IMG/VR virus record: IMGVR_UViG_3300042881_004347
Span: 1 to 22,712 of that record
Strand: one strand, 5' to 3'
From: a virus
DNA: 22,712 bases
Positions 4,376 to 16,490 of the stretch are shown here, one piece after another (positions within the stretch are counted from its first letter, which is position 1; each line of letters begins with the position of its first letter). The notes under the pieces were generated by a model. It was not told the origin of the DNA. It worked only from the letters and a program-made list of their open reading frames with translations, and made no database searches. The translations under genes were made by a program, and so were the position numbers.

Positions 4376-5338
4376 ATGGCAAAAATCTTCGTAAACATTT
4401 GTTCATATCGAGATAAATTACTCGCACCGACTCTCTATAGTTTGTTGGAAACTGAGTCTGGACGAAACGCTATTACATATGGAGTTTTCGAACAAACAAA
4501 AATCGAGGATAGTTTGCAAACAACACATCCTGATCTTGTCAATCATAAACAAATTCGATATAAACGAATTGATCCACAATTTTCTGATGGAGTTGTTTGG
4601 GCACGATGTATTAATTCGATGCAAATTTATGATGAAGATTTCCAGTATCAGATAGATTCTCATATGTTATTTGATAAAGATTGGGACAATCAATTGATAC
4701 TTGATTATAATGATGCATGTAAAGTGGCTGGGAAAAATAAAGTAGTTTTAACTTCTGGCACAAAAAATTACGATCTAGAAAATGAAAGAATCATTAAACA
4801 CACCTTAACTGATGATATTACTGTCAAGTTAGGTTATTTTCAATTCGATAAGGATCTAAGATTGCATGCTCATGGTGCATGGGTTCCAGCAACAGAGCGA
4901 GTTACTCCATCAATTCATATCTGCGCTGGCAACTTTTTCATGCCTGTAAGTTGGATCAAAGACGTTGGATACAATACAAAGATATTTTTTGAAGGCGAAG
5001 AACAGATTTTTGTTATTAGTTCAATTCTTGCTGGATATAGCATATTCCATCATCGCAAGATTAAAGTATATCATTATCTTCGATCTGGTAGCCATGACAC
5101 CAAACAAACGATTAATCCTGTTGCCAGCTCAGAAAAATTAAAGATGAATCACGATCGATCTAAGAAAGAGATCATTGATTACATCTATTCTCTATCCGAG
5201 GAACAGCTCGAACACTATCGTCGCATAACAGGTGTCGATTATATAAATAGAAGACTAGAGGATCGTGCAATTTCTCGTAAAATCTCTCCCAATCCTGGAA
5301 TTGTAAATGATTGGGAGGTGTCAAATAGAGATGGTTAA
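4376..5338 (+). CDS. GlcNAc-transferase-like glycosyltransferase
   Basis: This 320-aa protein resembles the GlcNAc-transferase family (PF11397), whose eukaryotic members add GlcNAc to hydroxyproline of Skp1. Family-like features are the start KIFVNICSYRD (residues 3-13), VVWARCINSM (73-82), the YQIDSHMLF block (91-99) with a D-x-H metal/nucleotide site, HICAGNFFMP (181-190) and FFEGEEQIF (204-212) followed by VYHYLR. The fold would be GT-A and cytosolic. The ATG follows the upstream stop by 5 bases with AGAG in range. The gene ends TAAATG, directly against the next start. The family link to hydroxyproline glycosylation is suggestive, given the hydroxylase in the same operon, but the acceptor here is unknown and could be a fibre, a host glycan or DNA. 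Confidence 0.8.
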   Translation: MAKIFVNICSYRDKLLAPTLYSLLETESGRNAITYGVFEQTKIEDSLQTTHPDLVNHKQIRYKRIDPQFSDGVVWARCINSMQIYDEDFQYQIDSHMLFDKDWDNQLILDYNDACKVAGKNKVVLTSGTKNYDLENERIIKHTLTDDITVKLGYFQFDKDLRLHAHGAWVPATERVTPSIHICAGNFFMPVSWIKDVGYNTKIFFEGEEQIFVISSILAGYSIFHHRKIKVYHYLRSGSHDTKQTINPVASSEKLKMNHDRSKKEIIDYIYSLSEEQLEHYRRITGVDYINRRLEDRAISRKISPNPGIVNDWEVSNRDG

Positions 5339-5905: not shown

Positions 5906-6241
5906 ATGGCGCAATTTGTAGAAGTAGATCTAGATCAAGGAACAACCTTTAATCTTGATATTGTAGTTAAGAACGATGATGGCAGCAGAATTAATGTTGC
6001 AGGCTACACATTTTCTTCCTCAATGCGCAAATCATTTTATTCTTCAAGTGTGACAGCAAATTTAACCGTTGCAGTGATTGATGCTGCGAATGGTGATGTT
6101 AGATTTTCGCTAAATGCAGCGTCAACTGCTAACATAAAAGCAGGTCGTTATGTGTTTGATATCAAACAAATTAATACTTCAAATGTTACATCGCGTATGT
6201 TTGAAGGGATTATTACAGTTAATCCACAGGTAACGAAATGA
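5906..6241 (+). CDS. Small beta-sandwich virion protein (BppU-N-like), upstream of fibre
   Basis: This 111-aa protein starts [27 protein letters not shown] and continues with [44 protein letters not shown] and [14 protein letters not shown]. The order of strands (opening strand, modified-residue strand, 'G-x-Y-x-F-D' strand, closing 'EG.I.V.P') resembles small Ig-like phage baseplate or fibre-attachment domains such as the N-terminal domain of BppU. That is a pattern resemblance only. Its stop overlaps the start of the collagen-like gene as ATGA, so the two are translationally coupled. It is likely an attachment or accessory protein of that fibre. AGGAA at 5893-5897 supports the start. Confidence 0.7.
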
Positions 6242-9200
6242 CGACAATTTCAGTTTCATCCACTGCTGGTCCACAAGGTCCACAAGGTCCACAAGGTTCT
6301 ACTGGTAACATTGGTCCACAGGGTCCACAAGGATCAGTTGGTCCACAAGGTCCACAAGGTCCATCTGGTTCTACTGGTCCACAAGGTCCATCTGGTGCAC
6401 AAGGTGCTGCGTCAACTGTTGCTGGTCCTCAAGGACCACAAGGACCACAAGGTGCTGGTCCACAAGGACCACAAGGACCACAGGGTGTAACTGGTGCACA
6501 AGGTCCATCTGGTCCACAAGGTGTCGCTGGTCCATCTGGTCCACAAGGTGATACAGGTCCTCAAGGTCCTCAAGGTGTCACTGGTGCACAAGGACCACAG
6601 GGTGCAACTGGTCCACAGGGTCCTCAAGGTGTCACTGGTGCACAAGGACCACAAGGTGTTGTTGGTGATACTGGACCACAAGGTCCGCAAGGTGTCACTG
6701 GTGCACAAGGTCCACAAGGACCACAAGGTCCGCAAGGCGTCACTGGTGCACAAGGTCCATCTGGTGCTCAAGGTAATCAAGGTGCACAAGGCATTCAAGG
6801 TTTAACAGGTGATACTGGTCCACAAGGTCCTCAAGGTCCTCAAGGTGTTGCGGGACCACAAGGTCCACAAGGTGTCGCTGGTCCACAGGGTGTCGCTGGT
6901 GCACAAGGTCCATCTGGTGCTCAAGGTAATCAAGGTGCACAAGGCATTCAAGGTTTAACAGGTGATACTGGTCCACAAGGTCCACAAGGTGTCGCTGGTC
7001 CATCTGGTCCATCTGGTCCACAGGGTGTTGCTGGTCCACAAGGTCCATCTGGTGCTCAAGGTAATCAAGGTGCACAAGGCATTCAAGGTTTAACAGGTGA
7101 TACTGGTGGACAAGGTCCATCTGGTCCATCTGGTCCATCTGGTCCACAAGGTGTCGCTGGTCCACAAGGTGTCGCTGGTGCACAAGGTCCACAAGGTGAT
7201 ACAGGTCCATCTGGTCCATCTGGTCCACAAGGTGTCGCTGGTCCACAAGGTGTCGCTGGTCCACAAGGTCCACAGGGTGATACAGGTCCACAAGGTCCTT
7301 CTGGCGTGTCAAATGTTCCTGGTCCGCAAGGTCCACAGGGTGATACAGGTCCTCAAGGTCCTCAAGGTCCACAAGGCGTCACTGGTCCACAAGGTCCATC
7401 TGGTGCTAAAGGTGATCAGGGTGAATTTGGTGGCGCAACTTTTGAATACATCTACTTAACAGACACAGCAAACACAGATCCTGGTGTAGCAAATTTAAAA
7501 TTCGATAATATAACATTTTCTTCTGTATCACGATTGTATATCGACTTTACAGATTTAAGTACTGCAAACGTATTTAATTATTTACAAACTATTGATGACT
7601 CTACGTCAACAATCAAAGGAACATTTAAAGTTTCAAATACTGCAAATGTAAGTGAATTTGCATACTTTAATATTAATGGATCTCACGAACACGTTTCAAG
7701 TTATTTCTCTGTTCCTGTTGCACATTTAAGTGGTGTTACAAGTTTTTCAAATTCTACCAATGTCATCATCACATTTGTTCGCACAGGTGATAAAGGTGAT
7801 ACAGGTCCACAAGGTCCACAAGGTCCACAAGGTCCACAGGGTGCTGGTCCACAAGGTCCACAAGGTCCACAGGGTCCCCAAGGTCCACAGGGTCCCCAAG
7901 GTCCCCAAGGTCCCCAAGGACCACAAGGTGTCACTGGTGCAAGAAATTACACTGTAACGAATAGTGGTGCCAGTCATTATGTGATTGATGGCGCAAATGA
8001 TCCTACATTGTATTTGATGCGCGGATTCACATATGAATTCTTTGTAAGTGCATCTGGACATCCTTTCTGGATCCAAACAGTTCCTGCGCCATACAGTGTT
8101 GGAAATGTTTACAGTAGTGGTGTAACAAATAATGGTGACGATGTTGGCACTGTAATATTTGCGGTTCCATATAATGCACCAAATACTCTTTATTATGTTT
8201 GCCAAAACCATTCTTCAATGTCTGGTACAATTGTTATCAGTGATGTGGGTCCAGTTGGTCCTCAAGGTCCACAAGGTGTAACTGGTGATACAGGCAATCC
8301 TGGACCACAAGGTCCAACTGGTCCAGGTGGTAATACTGGTGCACAAGGTCCACAGGGTGTTGTTGGTCCACAGGGTCCACAGGGTCCACAAGGTCCAACT
8401 GGCGCAGATTCAACAGTTGCTGGTCCTCAGGGTCCATCTGGTCCATCTGGTGCTCAAGGTAATCAAGGTGCACAAGGCATTCAAGGTTTAACAGGTGATA
8501 CTGGTCCACAAGGACCACAAGGTCCACAAGGTCCACAAGGTCCTCAAGGTGATGCATCAAGTGTTGCTGGTCCACAAGGTCCACAGGGTCCATCTGGTGC
8601 ACAAGGTAATCAAGGCGCACAAGGTTCACAAGGCATTCAGGGTTTAACAGGTGATACTGGTCCACAAGGTCCATCTGGTCCACAAGGTGCTGCATCAAGT
8701 GTTGCTGGTCCACAAGGACCACAGGGTCCGCAAGGTTCTACTGGTGACACAGGACCAACAGGTCCACAAGGACCACAAGGTCCACAGGGTGCTGGTCCAC
8801 AAGGTCCGCAAGGTCCTCAAGGTGATGCATCAACTATTGCTGGTCCACAAGGACCACAAGGTCCACAAGGACCACAAGGTGCTGCGTCAAGTGTTGCTGG
8901 TCCACAGGGTCCACAGGGAGCAATTGGTCCGCAAGGTCCGCAGGGCGTCACTGGTGCAAGAACATATACAGTGACGAATGTCGGAGCTGGTGCATATCAA
9001 ATCGATGGTTCTAGCAATCCAACATTAAATTTACTGCGTGGATTTACTTATGAATTTAGTATAAGTGCTTCTGGACACCCTTTCTGGATTCAAACAGTTT
9101 CTGGTGCATATAGTTCTGGAAATATATATTCATCAGGCATTACAAATAACGGCACTCAAGTTGGAACGCTAACATTCGCTGTTCCTTATGATGCACCAAG

Positions 9201-10722
9201 TACTCTTTATTATGTTTGCCAATTCCACGCATCGATGCAGGGTATAATTAATATTAGTGATGTTGGTCCTATTGGTCCACAAGGTCCACAGGGACCACAA
9301 GGACCACAAGGTTCAATTGGATCAACTGGTGATGTTGGTCCTCAAGGTCCGCAAGGTCCGCAAGGTCCACAGGGTCCGCAAGGTGCTGGTCCTCAAGGTC
9401 CACAAGGACCACAAGGTGATGCGTCAAGTGTTGCTGGTCCGCAAGGTCCACAAGGTCCACAAGGTCCACAAGGTGTCACTGGTGCACAGGGTCCACAAGG
9501 TCCACAAGGTGTCACTGGTGCACAGGGTCCACAAGGTCCACAAGGTGTCATTGGTGATACAGGACCACAAGGTCCTCAAGGTGTGACTGGTCCTCAAGGT
9601 CCTCAAGGTGATACAGGTCCACAGGGTCCTCAGGGTCCACAAGGACCACAAGGTGTTAAGGGTGACACTGGTGACTTTGGTGGTGCAACGTTTGAATATA
9701 TCTTCAATACCAATACAGCAAATACTGATCCAACAGCTGGCTATGTCAAGTTCAATAATACAACATTGCTATCTGCGACTGAGATGTATATTGATAACAT
9801 CGATCGTTTAAGTGGAAATGTTTTCAATTACTTGAATACAATTGATGACTCAACATCAACAATCAAAGGCACGTTCAAGATTGCAAATTCTGCAAATGTT
9901 CTAGAATACACATTCTTCAATATTAACGGTACTCATCTTCATGTTGCTGATTGGTTCGTTGTTCCTGTTGCAGGATTGAACTCAACATTAACTGGCTCGA
10001 ACTTCTCAAATAGCACAAATGTGATTATGACATTTGTTCGTACTGGTGATAAAGGTGATGCAGGTCCACAAGGTCCACAAGGTCCACAAGGTCCGCAAGG
10101 TGTCACTGGTGCACAAGGTCCACAAGGTCCACAAGGACCACAAGGTCCGCAAGGTGTCACTGGTCCACAGGGTCCACAGGGTCCACAAGGTGTCATTGGT
10201 GATACAGGACCACAAGGTCCACAAGGTGTGATTGGTCCTCAAGGTCCTCAAGGTCCTCAAGGTCCACAAGGTGTCACTGGTGCACAAGGACCACAAGGTC
10301 CACAAGGTCCTCAAGGACCACAAGGTCCTCAAGGTCCTCAAGGCAACACAGGTCCAACTGGACCAAATGAAGGTGCAACGCTTAAAGCTGTAAAAGACTT
10401 TATGGTTTCGAATACAAACACTAATGGCGCAAATACTGTCAGTCTTACAACTGCTAACTATTTCCGTCATACATTAACAGCAAATGTGACATTTACATTC
10501 ACGGATGCACCATCTTCTGGAACAGGTCAAATGTTCTCGCTATTATTGTCGCAAGATGGAACTGGTGGAAGATTGCCATCATTCTCCAATACAATTTATT
10601 GGGCTGGTGGATCTATTCCTCCTGCGACAACAGATGCAAATGCTCGTGACTTGTGGACATTTATCACATATGATGGTGGTACGACATATTGGGGCACTTT
10701 GACTATGAAGGACCTTCGATAA
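6238..10722 (+). CDS. Collagen-like fibre protein with two cupredoxin-like domains
   Basis: The 1494-aa protein has five Gly-X-Y blocks, mostly GPQ with GVT, GAQ, GPS and GDT: residues 11-397, 517-567, 671-906, 1010-1147 and 1270-1376. Four globular inserts separate them in A-B-B-A order. A (398-516, 1148-1268) starts GGATFEYI and ends [10 protein letters not shown] (568-670, 907-1009) is cupredoxin-like, with H608/C655/H658/M661 and H947/C994/H997/M1000. The C-terminal 118 residues (1377-1494) resemble phage fibre tips ending with a 'DGGTTYWG' strand. Collagen-like phage fibres form trimers, so a long trimeric fibre is expected. The only lysines in collagen blocks are four Y-position K-G-D sites beside A domains. 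The ATG overlaps the upstream stop; AGG at 6228-6230 is its ribosome binding site. Receptor and fibre position are unknown. Confidence 0.9.
6763..6819 (+). repeat. 57-base identical direct repeat, copy 1
   Basis: This stretch encodes the series [19 protein letters not shown]. It is identical at every base to copies at 6916-6972, 7051-7107 and 8449-8505; a diverged relative begins near 8596. Confidence 0.85.
6916..6972 (+). repeat. 57-base identical direct repeat, copy 2
   Basis: Identical to copy 1; the 15 bases upstream are also shared with copy 1, so this pair forms a longer repeat. Confidence 0.85.
7051..7107 (+). repeat. 57-base identical direct repeat, copy 3
   Basis: Identical to copy 1. 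The triplet after it is GGQ rather than GPQ, the only such break after this repeat. Confidence 0.85.
7939..8247 (+). other. Cupredoxin-like domain B1 coding segment
   Basis: Residues 568-670 of the fibre protein. The candidate type 1 copper ligands are H608 (SGHPFW), C655, H658 and M661 ([10 protein letters not shown]). The 47-residue H-to-C gap equals that of plastocyanin (H37 to C84), and C-x2-H-x2-M equals amicyanin (C92, H95, M98). Metal binding is predicted, not shown. Confidence 0.65.
8449..8505 (+). repeat. 57-base identical direct repeat, copy 4
   Basis: Identical to copy 1 although it lies more than 1.3 kb away, across domains A1 and B1. This is consistent with recombination between collagen blocks. 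Confidence 0.85.
8956..9264 (+). other. Cupredoxin-like domain B2 coding segment
   Basis: Residues 907-1009 of the fibre protein, a diverged duplicate of B1. H947, C994, H997 and M1000 ([10 protein letters not shown]) keep the same spacing while surrounding residues vary, which favours a functional site. Confidence 0.65.
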
Positions 10723-10759: not shown

Positions 10760-11755
10760 ATGAAAATACATGTGTTAGCAAATCCGCGCAATCCTACTGG
10801 GTTGATGAATCGCGTTGATCCATTTGCAGTTCATGCACACAAGTATATCAAACATTTGTCTCAACATTTCCATATGATTCATTATGGAGTTCCAGGCGCA
10901 CAAGTCGACTGCGAGCATGTCGACATTCCAACAACACCAGTTGAAATTAACGAATTTAATTTGTTAGCAGGTAAAGAGATTCAAGAGCGAGCAAGCACAG
11001 GCGATATTATCGTTTGCTTTTTTGGTGTGGATAATAAAGTTGCTTGTGATATGAATCCTGGATGTAAAATTGTTGAACCATCAATTGGATATCGCGCCAA
11101 TGGCGTGTTTGCTCCATATAGAGTATTCACATCATATGCAAACATGCATTATTTTTATGGTGATCGTGACATGTTAATGTCGCCAAGCTGGTTCGATGAT
11201 GTAATCGGCAATCCATTTACAGTAAGTGAATTTGAATATAGTGAAAAGAAAGAAGATCATTTCTTGTATTTTGGTAGAGTGTGTGAAGAAAAAGGTGTAC
11301 ATCTAGCCATTCAAGCAACAGAAAAGATGGGCAAGAAACTCGTCATCGCTGGTCCTGGATCGTTGCAAGCATTAGGTTATGATAGAATACCAAATCACGT
11401 TGAAATGTTTGGCGTTGCAAATGCAGAGCAGCGAAAACAATTGATGAAAAATGCAAAGTGTTTGTTTGGACTAACACACTATGTTGAACCATTTGGTAAT
11501 ATGATCATTGAAGCAAATCTTTCTGGTACACCTGTGATTACAACTGATTGGGGTGCATTTCCAGAGATTGTTCTCGAGGGGAAAACAGGATATCGAGTGA
11601 GGGATTTCAAATCACTATTAAATGCTATGAATTTAATAGATAAAATAGACTTGTGCGATTGTCGATCATGGGGATTAAATTTCTCTGACGAAGTTATTCA
11701 CATGAAGCATAAGCAATACTTAGATAAAGTTATTTTAAATTCATTTTATGCGTAA
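10760..11755 (+). CDS. GT-B glycosyltransferase (GT4-like)
   Basis: This 331-aa protein has the two-domain GT-B pattern. The C-terminal nucleotide-sugar half shows YFGRVCEEKGV (170-180), KLVIAGPGS (193-201), VEMFGVAN (214-221), and the E-x7-E motif E243-P-F-G-N-M-I-I-E251, followed by GTPVITTDWGAFPEIV and GKTGYRV. These mark a retaining transferase of the GT4 type, cytosolic and without a membrane anchor. Length is slightly short for the family. No strong Shine-Dalgarno is seen before the ATG. The gene overlaps the next by 8 bases. The sugar donor and acceptor are not visible; fibre protein, lipopolysaccharide and DNA are all possible acceptors. Confidence 0.85.
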   Translation: MKIHVLANPRNPTGLMNRVDPFAVHAHKYIKHLSQHFHMIHYGVPGAQVDCEHVDIPTTPVEINEFNLLAGKEIQERASTGDIIVCFFGVDNKVACDMNPGCKIVEPSIGYRANGVFAPYRVFTSYANMHYFYGDRDMLMSPSWFDDVIGNPFTVSEFEYSEKKEDHFLYFGRVCEEKGVHLAIQATEKMGKKLVIAGPGSLQALGYDRIPNHVEMFGVANAEQRKQLMKNAKCLFGLTHYVEPFGNMIIEANLSGTPVITTDWGAFPEIVLEGKTGYRVRDFKSLLNAMNLIDKIDLCDCRSWGLNFSDEVIHMKHKQYLDKVILNSFYA

Positions 11756-12507: not shown

Positions 12508-13065
12508 ATGAAAACTACTTTAATTATTGTTGACGACTTTTATCAAAACCCTGATCAAGTAAGAGCATATGCTCTGTCACAACCATTTGAAGTCTCTGGA
12601 AACTATCCTGGAGTTCGAACAAAGCCATGGCTTCCTGATGATTTAAGGAATTCTCTTCAATACATTATACAAAATGCGGGTGGTCAAATCACTAATTGGT
12701 TTGAAGAATCTGGATATACTGGCGCGTTTCAAATCTGTACTGCTCAAGACAGAACATGGATTCATGCTGATAGTTTTAATACTTGGGCAGCTGTTTGTTA
12801 TCTGACACCAGATGCACCACTTTCTTCTGGAACTGCCTTGTATCGATGGAAAGAAACAAAAGAATATGAAAGGATCGATCGCGATGCACCATATCATGAT
12901 GGATACGATTACACTAAATGGGAAAAGACAGATTATGTTGCAAACAAATATAATCGAATTGTGCTGTATCGTGGAAACTTATATCATGCATCGTTAGACT
13001 ATTTTGGCAATAATTATCAAAATGGTCGATTGTTTCAAACCTTTTTCTTTAATACAGAGTACTGA
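12508..13065 (+). CDS. Fe(II)/2OG oxygenase-like protein (DUF6445 type)
   Basis: This 185-aa protein has the triad of an Fe(II)/2OG oxygenase: H86 and D88 in TWIHADSFNTWAAVCYLTP, H160 in YRGNLYHASLDYFG, and R174 in NGRLFQTFFF as the likely 2-oxoglutarate ligand. The arrangement and the 'GTALYRWK' strand resemble proteins I recall as DUF6445. It differs strongly from the PKHD enzyme at 2297, so the window encodes two unrelated-looking oxygenases. It starts 7 bases after the previous stop and overlaps the next ATG by one base (TGATG). Context, between glycosyltransferases, suggests hydroxylation of a substrate that is then glycosylated. The substrate is unknown. Confidence 0.72.
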   Translation: MKTTLIIVDDFYQNPDQVRAYALSQPFEVSGNYPGVRTKPWLPDDLRNSLQYIIQNAGGQITNWFEESGYTGAFQICTAQDRTWIHADSFNTWAAVCYLTPDAPLSSGTALYRWKETKEYERIDRDAPYHDGYDYTKWEKTDYVANKYNRIVLYRGNLYHASLDYFGNNYQNGRLFQTFFFNTEY

Positions 13066-13811
13066 TGAAGATCTTGCATGTAATATTCTCTACGAATCGA
13101 ATCAAGTATCTGATGCCAACTCTAGAGTCTCTAAAAAATCTAGACTATGGCAATCATACGGTTGATAAATTAATTATCGACGATTATCCGAGAAATAGGA
13201 ATCCTGCCATATTTGACCTAATCTCAAAGGTTTATGGTTTTAATTTACGATTTAACGAGACTAACTTGGGTCTATCGGTTAATTGGAGCGCGTTCTTCGA
13301 TTGGTTAAAAACACAAGATTATGACTATATCTTACATCAAGAGGACGATGTTCTATTGACGAGTCCGATTCGAATTGACGACTTGATAACTATTCTAGAA
13401 TCAGATGAAAAAATGGCTTCAGTCGTTCTTCAGCGTCAATCATGGTATTTTCATGAAACTGAACCCGTAATCGATGTTACCGATGTTAAAATTGGAAACT
13501 ATTACTATAGCCAAAATGTAAAAACTTTTCCAATCATATTCTCGCTCTATCGTAAAAATGTGATCGAATATTCGTTTAGAGATTACTGGAAATTTAATGT
13601 AAACGAAGGAATGATCATGGTTTATCTAAATTTCTTCCATCAAATGTATTCTGCAACTTTAAAGGGTCCAGAAGGTCAAAATTTAATCGTTCATATCGGA
13701 GAAGAGACTGTTGGTAAACGACTCGAGCCAGGAGAGCCAAACTGGGAGCAATTCTCTCATATGGACCCAAACAGAGTTTATAACTCTCGAAATGGTAAAT
13801 TAATCGAGTGA
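13065..13811 (+). CDS. GT-A glycosyltransferase (GT2-like)
   Basis: This 248-aa protein begins KILHVIFSTNRIKYLMPTLESL, the usual GT2 opening (strand, then a helix after 'T-x-N/D-R'). LIIDDYPRN (37-45) is the second strand and YILHQEDDVLL (88-98) contains E93-D94-D95, the likely metal-binding DxD equivalent. NLGLSVNW follows the family position for the donor pocket. No membrane helices follow, so it is a soluble transferase. It is the last gene of the cassette, joined to the previous one by TGATG. The next gene begins a conserved morphogenesis operon with its own promoter. Donor and acceptor are unknown. Confidence 0.78.
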   Translation: MKILHVIFSTNRIKYLMPTLESLKNLDYGNHTVDKLIIDDYPRNRNPAIFDLISKVYGFNLRFNETNLGLSVNWSAFFDWLKTQDYDYILHQEDDVLLTSPIRIDDLITILESDEKMASVVLQRQSWYFHETEPVIDVTDVKIGNYYYSQNVKTFPIIFSLYRKNVIEYSFRDYWKFNVNEGMIMVYLNFFHQMYSATLKGPEGQNLIVHIGEETVGKRLEPGEPNWEQFSHMDPNRVYNSRNGKLIE

Positions 13812-14601: not shown

Positions 14602-15489
14602 ATGGCAACTAGTGTATATTTTAATAATCAACGAGCAACCGTTGAGCAAAATCTTCTTGAAGATTTGATTATAGAATCAATTAAGAATCATGGTATAGAT
14701 GTTTACTATCTTCCTAGAGAATCACAATCATCAATTGATGAACTTTTTGGTGACGATCCAGTAAAATATTTTCGAAAAGCAATTAAGTTAGAGATGTATC
14801 TTGAATCTTTTCAAAATTATGAAGGTAATCAAGAATTTTTCTCTAAATTTGGTCTCGAAATTCAAGATACTGCTCGCCTTTGCGTTGCTCGAAGAAGATT
14901 TGAGCGTCAAGTTGCTTCAGTAATGGGTGCTGATCGAAGACTTCCAAAAGAAGGCGACCTAATTTATCTACCAATTCAATTTAAATTGATGGAGATTAAG
15001 TTTGTTCAAGAAGAAAAAAACTTCTTTCAATTAGGTAGAGATTCTATCAATCCATACATGTATGGATTAACTGTAGAAGCATTTAAGTATAATGGAGAGC
15101 TGCTACAAACTGGAACAGAAGAAATTGATCGTATTGCAGATCTACAAAGTAATGTTCTAGAATTAAATTTAAACGCTGGTGGCACAGGCACTTTCCAACG
15201 CTTTGAGGTTGTATATCAAGGGTCTAATCTTGCAACCGCGACAGCGAAAGCAATTGTTGCTGGTTGGAATCTACCGACACAAAAATTAAAAGTAAGAAAT
15301 GTAAAAGGCGCATTTGTAGGTGGCACTTTAGTTAAAGGCTCAACAAGTAATGCTCAGTGGACTCTAAACGCACCACCAGATTTACTTAACAATGTTAATG
15401 TAGGAAATATTGAGGATAATGATATAATTGAATCAGAGGCTGATGGAATTATAGATTTTACTGAGATTAATCCATTTGGTGAACCATAA
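14602..15489 (+). CDS. 14: Neck protein gp14 with an added beta domain
   Basis: This 295-aa protein matches T4 gp14 (256 aa), the second neck protein. Family features are the start ATSVYFNNQRATVEQNLLEDLIIESIKNHG, YYLPR, and the FSKFGLEIQDTARLCVARRRFE helix region. Residues about 194-257 (GTGTFQ to WTLN) form an additional domain with the pattern 'EVVYQGSNLATATAKAIVAGW...KLKVRNVKGAFVGG', which also occurs in gp15 of this phage and explains the extra length. The C-terminus is acidic and ends INPFGEP, as in relatives. Its TAA overlaps the next ATG by one base. Role: docking of head to tail. Confidence 0.9.
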   Translation: MATSVYFNNQRATVEQNLLEDLIIESIKNHGIDVYYLPRESQSSIDELFGDDPVKYFRKAIKLEMYLESFQNYEGNQEFFSKFGLEIQDTARLCVARRRFERQVASVMGADRRLPKEGDLIYLPIQFKLMEIKFVQEEKNFFQLGRDSINPYMYGLTVEAFKYNGELLQTGTEEIDRIADLQSNVLELNLNAGGTGTFQRFEVVYQGSNLATATAKAIVAGWNLPTQKLKVRNVKGAFVGGTLVKGSTSNAQWTLNAPPDLLNNVNVGNIEDNDIIESEADGIIDFTEINPFGEP

Positions 15490-16490
15490 TGTTATCTAAT
15501 ATTCACTTTTATCATCGTATAACTCGTAAAATGGTTGTTGCGTTTGGCACATTATTTAATAATATTCGTTTGGTTCGTTATAATAAGGCAGGAACTCAAG
15601 AAATTGAACGAATTAATGTTCCGTTGCAATACTCACAAAAAGAAAAGTTTTATCAACGCATAACGCAAGATCCAGAACTTACAAAAGAAGTTCAAATCAC
15701 ATTACCAAGAATGTCATTTGATTTAACATCAATAACATATGACCCAATGAGAAAAAGAAGTTTGTTTACTGAATCTTTTTCTCCCGAGACACAAACAACA
15801 ATAAAGTCGATTCGCACAACTCCATATAATTTTGATTTTGAATTAAATATCTATGTTCGTAACACTGAAGATGGCACTCAAATTATTGAACAAATTTTAC
15901 CATTCTTTAATCCAGACTACAATGTAACAATTGATGTTATAGGATTATCAGATCAAAAAGTTGATGTTCCATTTATATTGCAAAATATCTCATACAATGT
16001 TGACAGTGTTGGCGCACCAGATACAACAAGAATGATAATATGGACATTAACATTTACAGCAAAGGGTTATATGTTTGGTCCAATCCTATCTCGTAATATC
16101 ATTCGAAAGTCTACTGCAAATACATTCAATTCAATTTTTGAATTAGATGGTCTTCGTGAATTGACTATGAATGCAAATAGTGGCGTAGGAAACTATCAAA
16201 CTGGGGAAGTAGTGTTTGAGGGTCGATCATTAGATGCAGCAAATTCAACTGCAACAGTTAGTAGTTGGAGTAATACAACCAAAGTTCTTGTTGTATCTGA
16301 TGTTAATGGAGTTCTTGAAACAGGAAGAAATCTAACTGGCATAGTTACAAATACATCATATAAAATACAATCATTTAGCACAGCAGAAAATCAATTAGTT
16401 AATCTCTCAGTGGTTCCAACGCCAAATAATGCAAGTGCTCAAACTGCGTTTGGATTTGATGAAACAGTTATTGAGTTTCCAAATTTATAA
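15489..16490 (+). CDS. 15: Tail sheath stabiliser gp15 with an added beta domain
   Basis: This 333-aa protein matches T4 gp15 (272 aa), which caps the tail and stabilises the contractile sheath. The start IHFYHRITRKMVVAFGTLFNNIRLVRY and the block 'QITLPRMSFDLTSITYDPMRKR' are characteristic. Residues 231-295 (SGVGNYQTGEVVFEGRSL to SYKIQSF) carry the same kind of beta domain as gp14, placed near the C-terminus. The gene starts on the last base of the gp14 stop and ends 6 bases before gene 16. The long size compared with T4 is explained by the domain. Confidence 0.9.
   Translation: MLSNIHFYHRITRKMVVAFGTLFNNIRLVRYNKAGTQEIERINVPLQYSQKEKFYQRITQDPELTKEVQITLPRMSFDLTSITYDPMRKRSLFTESFSPETQTTIKSIRTTPYNFDFELNIYVRNTEDGTQIIEQILPFFNPDYNVTIDVIGLSDQKVDVPFILQNISYNVDSVGAPDTTRMIIWTLTFTAKGYMFGPILSRNIIRKSTANTFNSIFELDGLRELTMNANSGVGNYQTGEVVFEGRSLDAANSTATVSSWSNTTKVLVVSDVNGVLETGRNLTGIVTNTSYKIQSFSTAENQLVNLSVVPTPNNASAQTAFGFDETVIEFPNL

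Follow-up and report, generated by a model that had tools for sequence, protein, structure and literature searches.

Two adjacent genes at the head-tail joint of a T4-like phage raised the question of whether the neck protein gp14 and the tail protein gp15 contain the same additional domain and what it might do there. The stretch of DNA analyzed (the window) comprises 22,712 nt of the IMG/VR record IMGVR_UViG_3300042881_004347 and comes from a T4-like phage, whose terminase is ~50% identical to those of Synechococcus phage S-SKS1 and Methylophilales phage Melnitz. The two genes overlap by one base (Table 1) and encode a T4-type neck protein (PF11649: 129.7 bits against a curated cut-off of 25) and a T4-type tail sheath stabilizer (PF16724: 221.5 bits against a curated cut-off of 25), the model of the latter matching T4 gp15 in Foldseek with an E-value of 1.8e-14. 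Other genes of the window encode a 661 aa protein (248–2233) that consists for the most part of imperfect NYNVAYPVANQP(A)TAYS-type repeats and has no match in Pfam or PHROG, and a 1494 aa collagen-like protein (6238–10722), probably a fiber, with GPQ repeats and interspersed non-collagen domains. A 2OG-Fe(II) oxygenase (2297–2899) is encoded near the collagen-like gene, while three glycosyltransferase genes of different families (4376–5338, 10760–11755 and 13065–13811) lie amid the structural genes.

Table 1. Positions of the two neck genes, their beta-modules and the segments behind them in the window
Feature	Position	Strand	Evidence and remarks
gp14, neck/head-closure protein, T4 gp14 family	14602..15489	+	295 aa; PF11649 E 1.7e-37, PHROG 460 E 4e-76, T4 gp14 chain E 1e-27
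Beta-module copy 1, gp14 residues 185–257 (originally 194–257, plus first strand)	15154..15372	+	Homology; AlphaFold2 model of 79 residues, six strands
gp14 C-terminal arm (258–295), ESEAD..IDF.E.NPFG, kept behind the insert	15373..15486	+	Conserved with or without module (Cr30, cyanophages)
gp15, tail terminator/sheath stabilizer, T4 gp15 family	15489..16490	+	333 aa; PF16724 E 1.2e-65, T4 gp15 chain E 1e-21
Beta-module copy 2, gp15 residues 223–298 (originally 231–295, plus flanking strand residues)	16155..16382	+	Homology; AlphaFold2 model of full gp15
gp15 C-terminal tail (300–333), conserved AFGFDE motif, kept behind the insert	16386..16487	+	Alignment with module-free cyanophage and Cr30 gp15

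The original prediction had placed one and the same small beta domain at gp14 residues 194–257 and gp15 residues 231–295. These limits corresponded exactly to window positions 15181–15372 and 16179–16373, and the motif quoted for the domain was present in both proteins. The two segments aligned in BLASTP over 64 columns with 0 gaps and 31% identity (E 2e-10), and the full-length proteins matched at the same place (E 1e-9). The Smith-Waterman score of 95 lay well above the shuffled mean of 25.4 (sd 4.9, z = 14), the highest score among 20,000 shuffles being 59, and hhalign matched the gp14-only and gp15-only domain profiles over 65 columns with a probability of 99% (E 3.4e-18). Together with the common register of the predicted strands described below, this bore out the presence of the same domain in both proteins: the gp14 and gp15 segments are homologous.

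The AlphaFold2 models of the two copies were obtained from input alignments with zero sequences in common: a gp14-only alignment of 46 rows for the gp14 module and a gp15-only alignment of 51 rows for the full gp15. The gp14 module was modeled with a mean pLDDT of 96 and a pTM of 0.86. The module in gp15 had a pLDDT of mostly 81–89, as against a mean of 72 for the whole chain, whose pTM of 0.49 makes the relative placement of its parts unreliable. The two folds did not differ: the six strands of gp14 (186–190, 203–206, 215–223, 228–236, 243–246 and 252–255) coincided, at an alignment offset of +38, with those of gp15 (223–227, 241–244, 253–261, 266–273, 281–284 and 290–298). The module begins ~7–8 residues ahead of the limits first given, because its first strand lies upstream of them, and it is a reusable six-stranded beta-module of ~70 aa of T4-like virion proteins. 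Searches of Pfam and NCBIfam returned no model for it. Single-member matches in these two collections (E 0.02–0.2) were rejected, as were the WD40 proteins that the domain profile retrieved from PDB sequences; these have many identical repeats and matched in single stretches with E above 300. No Ig-type Pfam model matched and neither an Ig nor an Hfq fold occurred among the best 50 PDB fold matches, while the Hfq/Sm-like model PF23874 (Phage_Hfq) scored 13.4 bits with gp15 against a cut-off of 24.2 (E 0.09). The three best PDB fold matches of the gp14 module in Foldseek were gp7 of T4 and of Klebsiella phage KP1 (probability 0.92–0.99, TM 0.45–0.68, with non-significant E-values of 0.04–0.4); sequence similarity to the module was not detected in T4, gp7 included. 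Among predicted viral structures the module turned up again in gp7, in neck and fiber-like proteins and in one protein annotated as a tail sheath.

Alignment with T4, Caulobacter phage Cr30 and cyanophages placed the gp14 module between the core and the IDF.E.NPFG arm, of which T4 gp14 has a looser equivalent, and showed the gp15 module flanked on one side by the core and on the other by a tail whose (A/D)FGF motif is conserved. Both T4 proteins were without any copy, in agreement with the proposed insertion relative to T4. The further suggestion that the module explains the greater length of the two proteins held only approximately: gp14 minus the module has ~230 aa against 256 in T4, a shortfall due to an extended N-terminus and a longer C-terminus of the T4 protein. 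The distance from the end of the gp14 module to the C-terminus was 35–48 residues (median 39) in 261 sequences from the window's clade and from cyanophages. Before docking, the C-terminal residues 178–256 of T4 gp14 are disordered, and they then contact gp15 203–245 extensively (PMC12270204, preprint), these contacts being new and formed when the head docks on the tail (PMC12270204). Given this pairing, both inserts appear to map into the docking segments; T4 aligns only loosely here, and the exact residue equivalence is uncertain.

Exactly one copy of the module was counted in 263/265 gp14 and 262/275 gp15 sequences from IMG/VR relatives and a few reference phages, a redundant count in which some contigs were included more than once. 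Without redundancy, there were 87 non-identical gp14/gp15 pairs, in each of which both proteins had one copy. The exceptions in the redundant count were T4, Cr30, cyanophage-type gp15s and frameshifted or truncated genes. At one locus (L080:2896-3911) gp15 was divided over two overlapping frames, by a frameshift or an assembly error. Extra copies suggested by gp15 matches of ~1300–1430 bases at some loci were rejected by the profile count of one per protein; the longer span probably reflects the gp15 module also matching the module of the neighboring gp14. None of the 87 cyanophage-like and more distant loci (L327–L413) had the module in gp15, while every readable gp14 there had it, except possibly one fragment (L410). 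At the sensitivity used, no module was found in gp14 or gp15 of Melnitz and Mosig, Kyanoviridae of heterotrophs.

In a tree of 72 copies, few in columns and silent on which protein donated the gp15 copy, the gp15 copies fell on one side of a branch (97/88). They form one clade, consistent with a single gain followed by vertical descent. AU tests rejected neither a single clade of gp14 copies (p 0.25) nor one of gp14 and gp15 copies together (p 0.44). The modules evolve faster than the cores (mean identity 55% against 67–72%), their structural residues being strongly conserved. Co-variation of the two copies was dismissed as weak and unspecific: after removal of core divergence, the domain-to-domain distances correlated with a partial r of 0.24, against 0.12–0.19 for other neighboring segments. 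The mean net charge of the modules in the window's clade was +2.6 in gp14 (mostly positive) and -0.9 in gp15, compared to -0.6 in the gp14 modules of cyanophages, where a partner module in gp15 is missing; this contrast is one evolutionary comparison.

The view of the module as an extra domain of the neck proved too narrow, since the module is also present in gp7-, gp8-, gp10- and gp53-like baseplate proteins. In contig G008, near-identical to the window and with a gp14 99% identical to the window's, three more proteins had a copy, one gp7-like (1171 aa), one gp8-like (666 aa) and one gp10-like (1065 aa), the first two named from family matches and the third from gene order alone. The gp53 homologue of a longer relative had one copy. 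The isolated gp14 copy matched PHROG 701 (E 4.5e-6) and PHROG 460 (E 5e-6), and the isolated gp15 copy PHROG 701 and 4406 (E 0.0012 and 0.0018, weak taken alone). In the virions of these phages the module is thus a general one. This affects annotation: PHROG 460 and 3465 ("head closure Hc2") include the module or its neighbors. In Pelagibacter phage HTVC008M, the gene at L148:33435-36485 has the RefSeq name "head closure Hc2", yet is flanked by two baseplate wedge genes, and its product matches Pfam Baseplate_wedge; PHROG 3465 has the same doubtful label, probably via shared modules.

As to the role of the two neck copies, a brace of the head-tail joint is favored over outward decoration, at a confidence just short of even. 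In both proteins the module is spliced between a conserved core and a conserved C-terminal tail, apparently in the very segment through which gp14 and gp15 of T4 touch after the filled head has joined the tail. With both proteins assembling as hexamers, as in T4, six gp14 and six gp15 modules would gather around the joint (up to 6+6, because the module is inserted in both docking partners) and would stiffen it after docking. We infer that the modules touch each other or neighboring subunits and stabilize the joint; the gp14-gp15 interaction put forward originally is plausible, because both copies lie in segments touching in T4. The near-universal presence in gp14, at a near-constant spacing from the C-terminus, suggests a tie to the docking arm. 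A brace is further supported by the homology and common fold, the docking-segment sites, the single copies in all 87 pairs, the nearest solved fold being part of the baseplate wedge protein gp7, and the charge contrast. Against it stand the cyanophages, in which gp14 has the module and the gp15 partner copy is absent; because of such gp15s, and of baseplate proteins with a copy, contact between copies is not the module's general job. The faster evolution of the modules also suits exposed parts better than a tight interface, and the weak co-variation of the two copies and the unrelated inserts taken up by the gp15 site count against a brace as well. A narrower version of the brace, in which the gp15 copy made a new head-tail latch of two stacked six-membered rings whose partners bind by complementary charge, is unlikely; if true, a module already on gp14 would have been gained by its docking partner, giving a lock absent from T4 and cyanophages.

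Surface decoration is a real, if lesser, possibility. The modules might be exposed neck knobs that bind an external target (extracellular polymers, sugars on the host surface or fibers of the phage itself), a role presumed for accessory domains of other phage virions. Their rapid variation relative to the cores would fit, as would the similar folds of fiber and LamG-type cyanophage proteins and the variety of inserts found at one and the same place in gp15. This site has a different domain of ~65 aa in L327, L388, L407 and MED4-213 (for the L327- and L388-type inserts, identity with the module was rejected at an hhalign probability of 0.3%). The 532 aa gp15 of Pelagibacter phage Mosig (L311:6690-8288) has ~270 extra residues, on which Pfam is silent and which were read as LamG-like. 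These insertions mark the gp15 site as a hot spot, and because it takes unrelated inserts, the function of gp15 may not depend on the module fold. However, the gp14 module, near-universal and at an almost constant distance from the C-terminus, does not behave like an optional adhesin; the module is also present in the wedge proteins gp7, gp8 and gp53, and no carbohydrate-binding family of Pfam or NCBIfam matched it.

An attachment site for neck or long tail fibers, as with domain III of T4 gp13 and fibritin, is improbable. T4 does offer a precedent, its whiskers being fastened at the neck through the extra gp13 domain (PMC12270204), and long collagen-like and repeat proteins are encoded near by in the window, but the module was linked to no fiber and is carried by baseplate proteins too. 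Neutral spread of a piece copied into permissive C-terminal loops, with no specific role in the gp14/gp15 pair, would agree with its presence in five or more virion proteins of a single phage and with the tolerance of the gp15 loop for unrelated inserts, yet it has little to recommend it against retention in 87/87 non-identical pairs and nearly all cyanophage gp14s and strong conservation of the structural residues.

The locus presents a β-module that recurs in T4-like aquatic phages, is unlisted and lies in each of the two proteins that meet when head and tail dock. Compared to T4 gp14 and gp15 (PF11649, PF16724), the two proteins share core folds, gene order and position at the head-tail joint, and differ in the module, absent from both T4 proteins. 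The T4/KP1 baseplate wedge protein gp7 is the nearest solved match to the gp14 module in fold, at non-significant E-values, while the large virion structural proteins of PHROG 701, 4406 and 18802 have a sequence-related module copy, but are very long baseplate or fiber-like rather than neck proteins. In the cyanophages (Kyanoviridae), gp15 is module-free, and some gp14s (L313, L314, L344 and other cyanophage-like ones) reach 460–670 aa through repeats of a second kind ahead of the module (GYT.PPT.TI..GGG.GA.A), which may also occur in gp6; cyanophage gp14 (P-SSM7, S-PM2, P-SSM2) nevertheless has the module in the same place as in the window, between the core and the IDF.E.NPFG arm.
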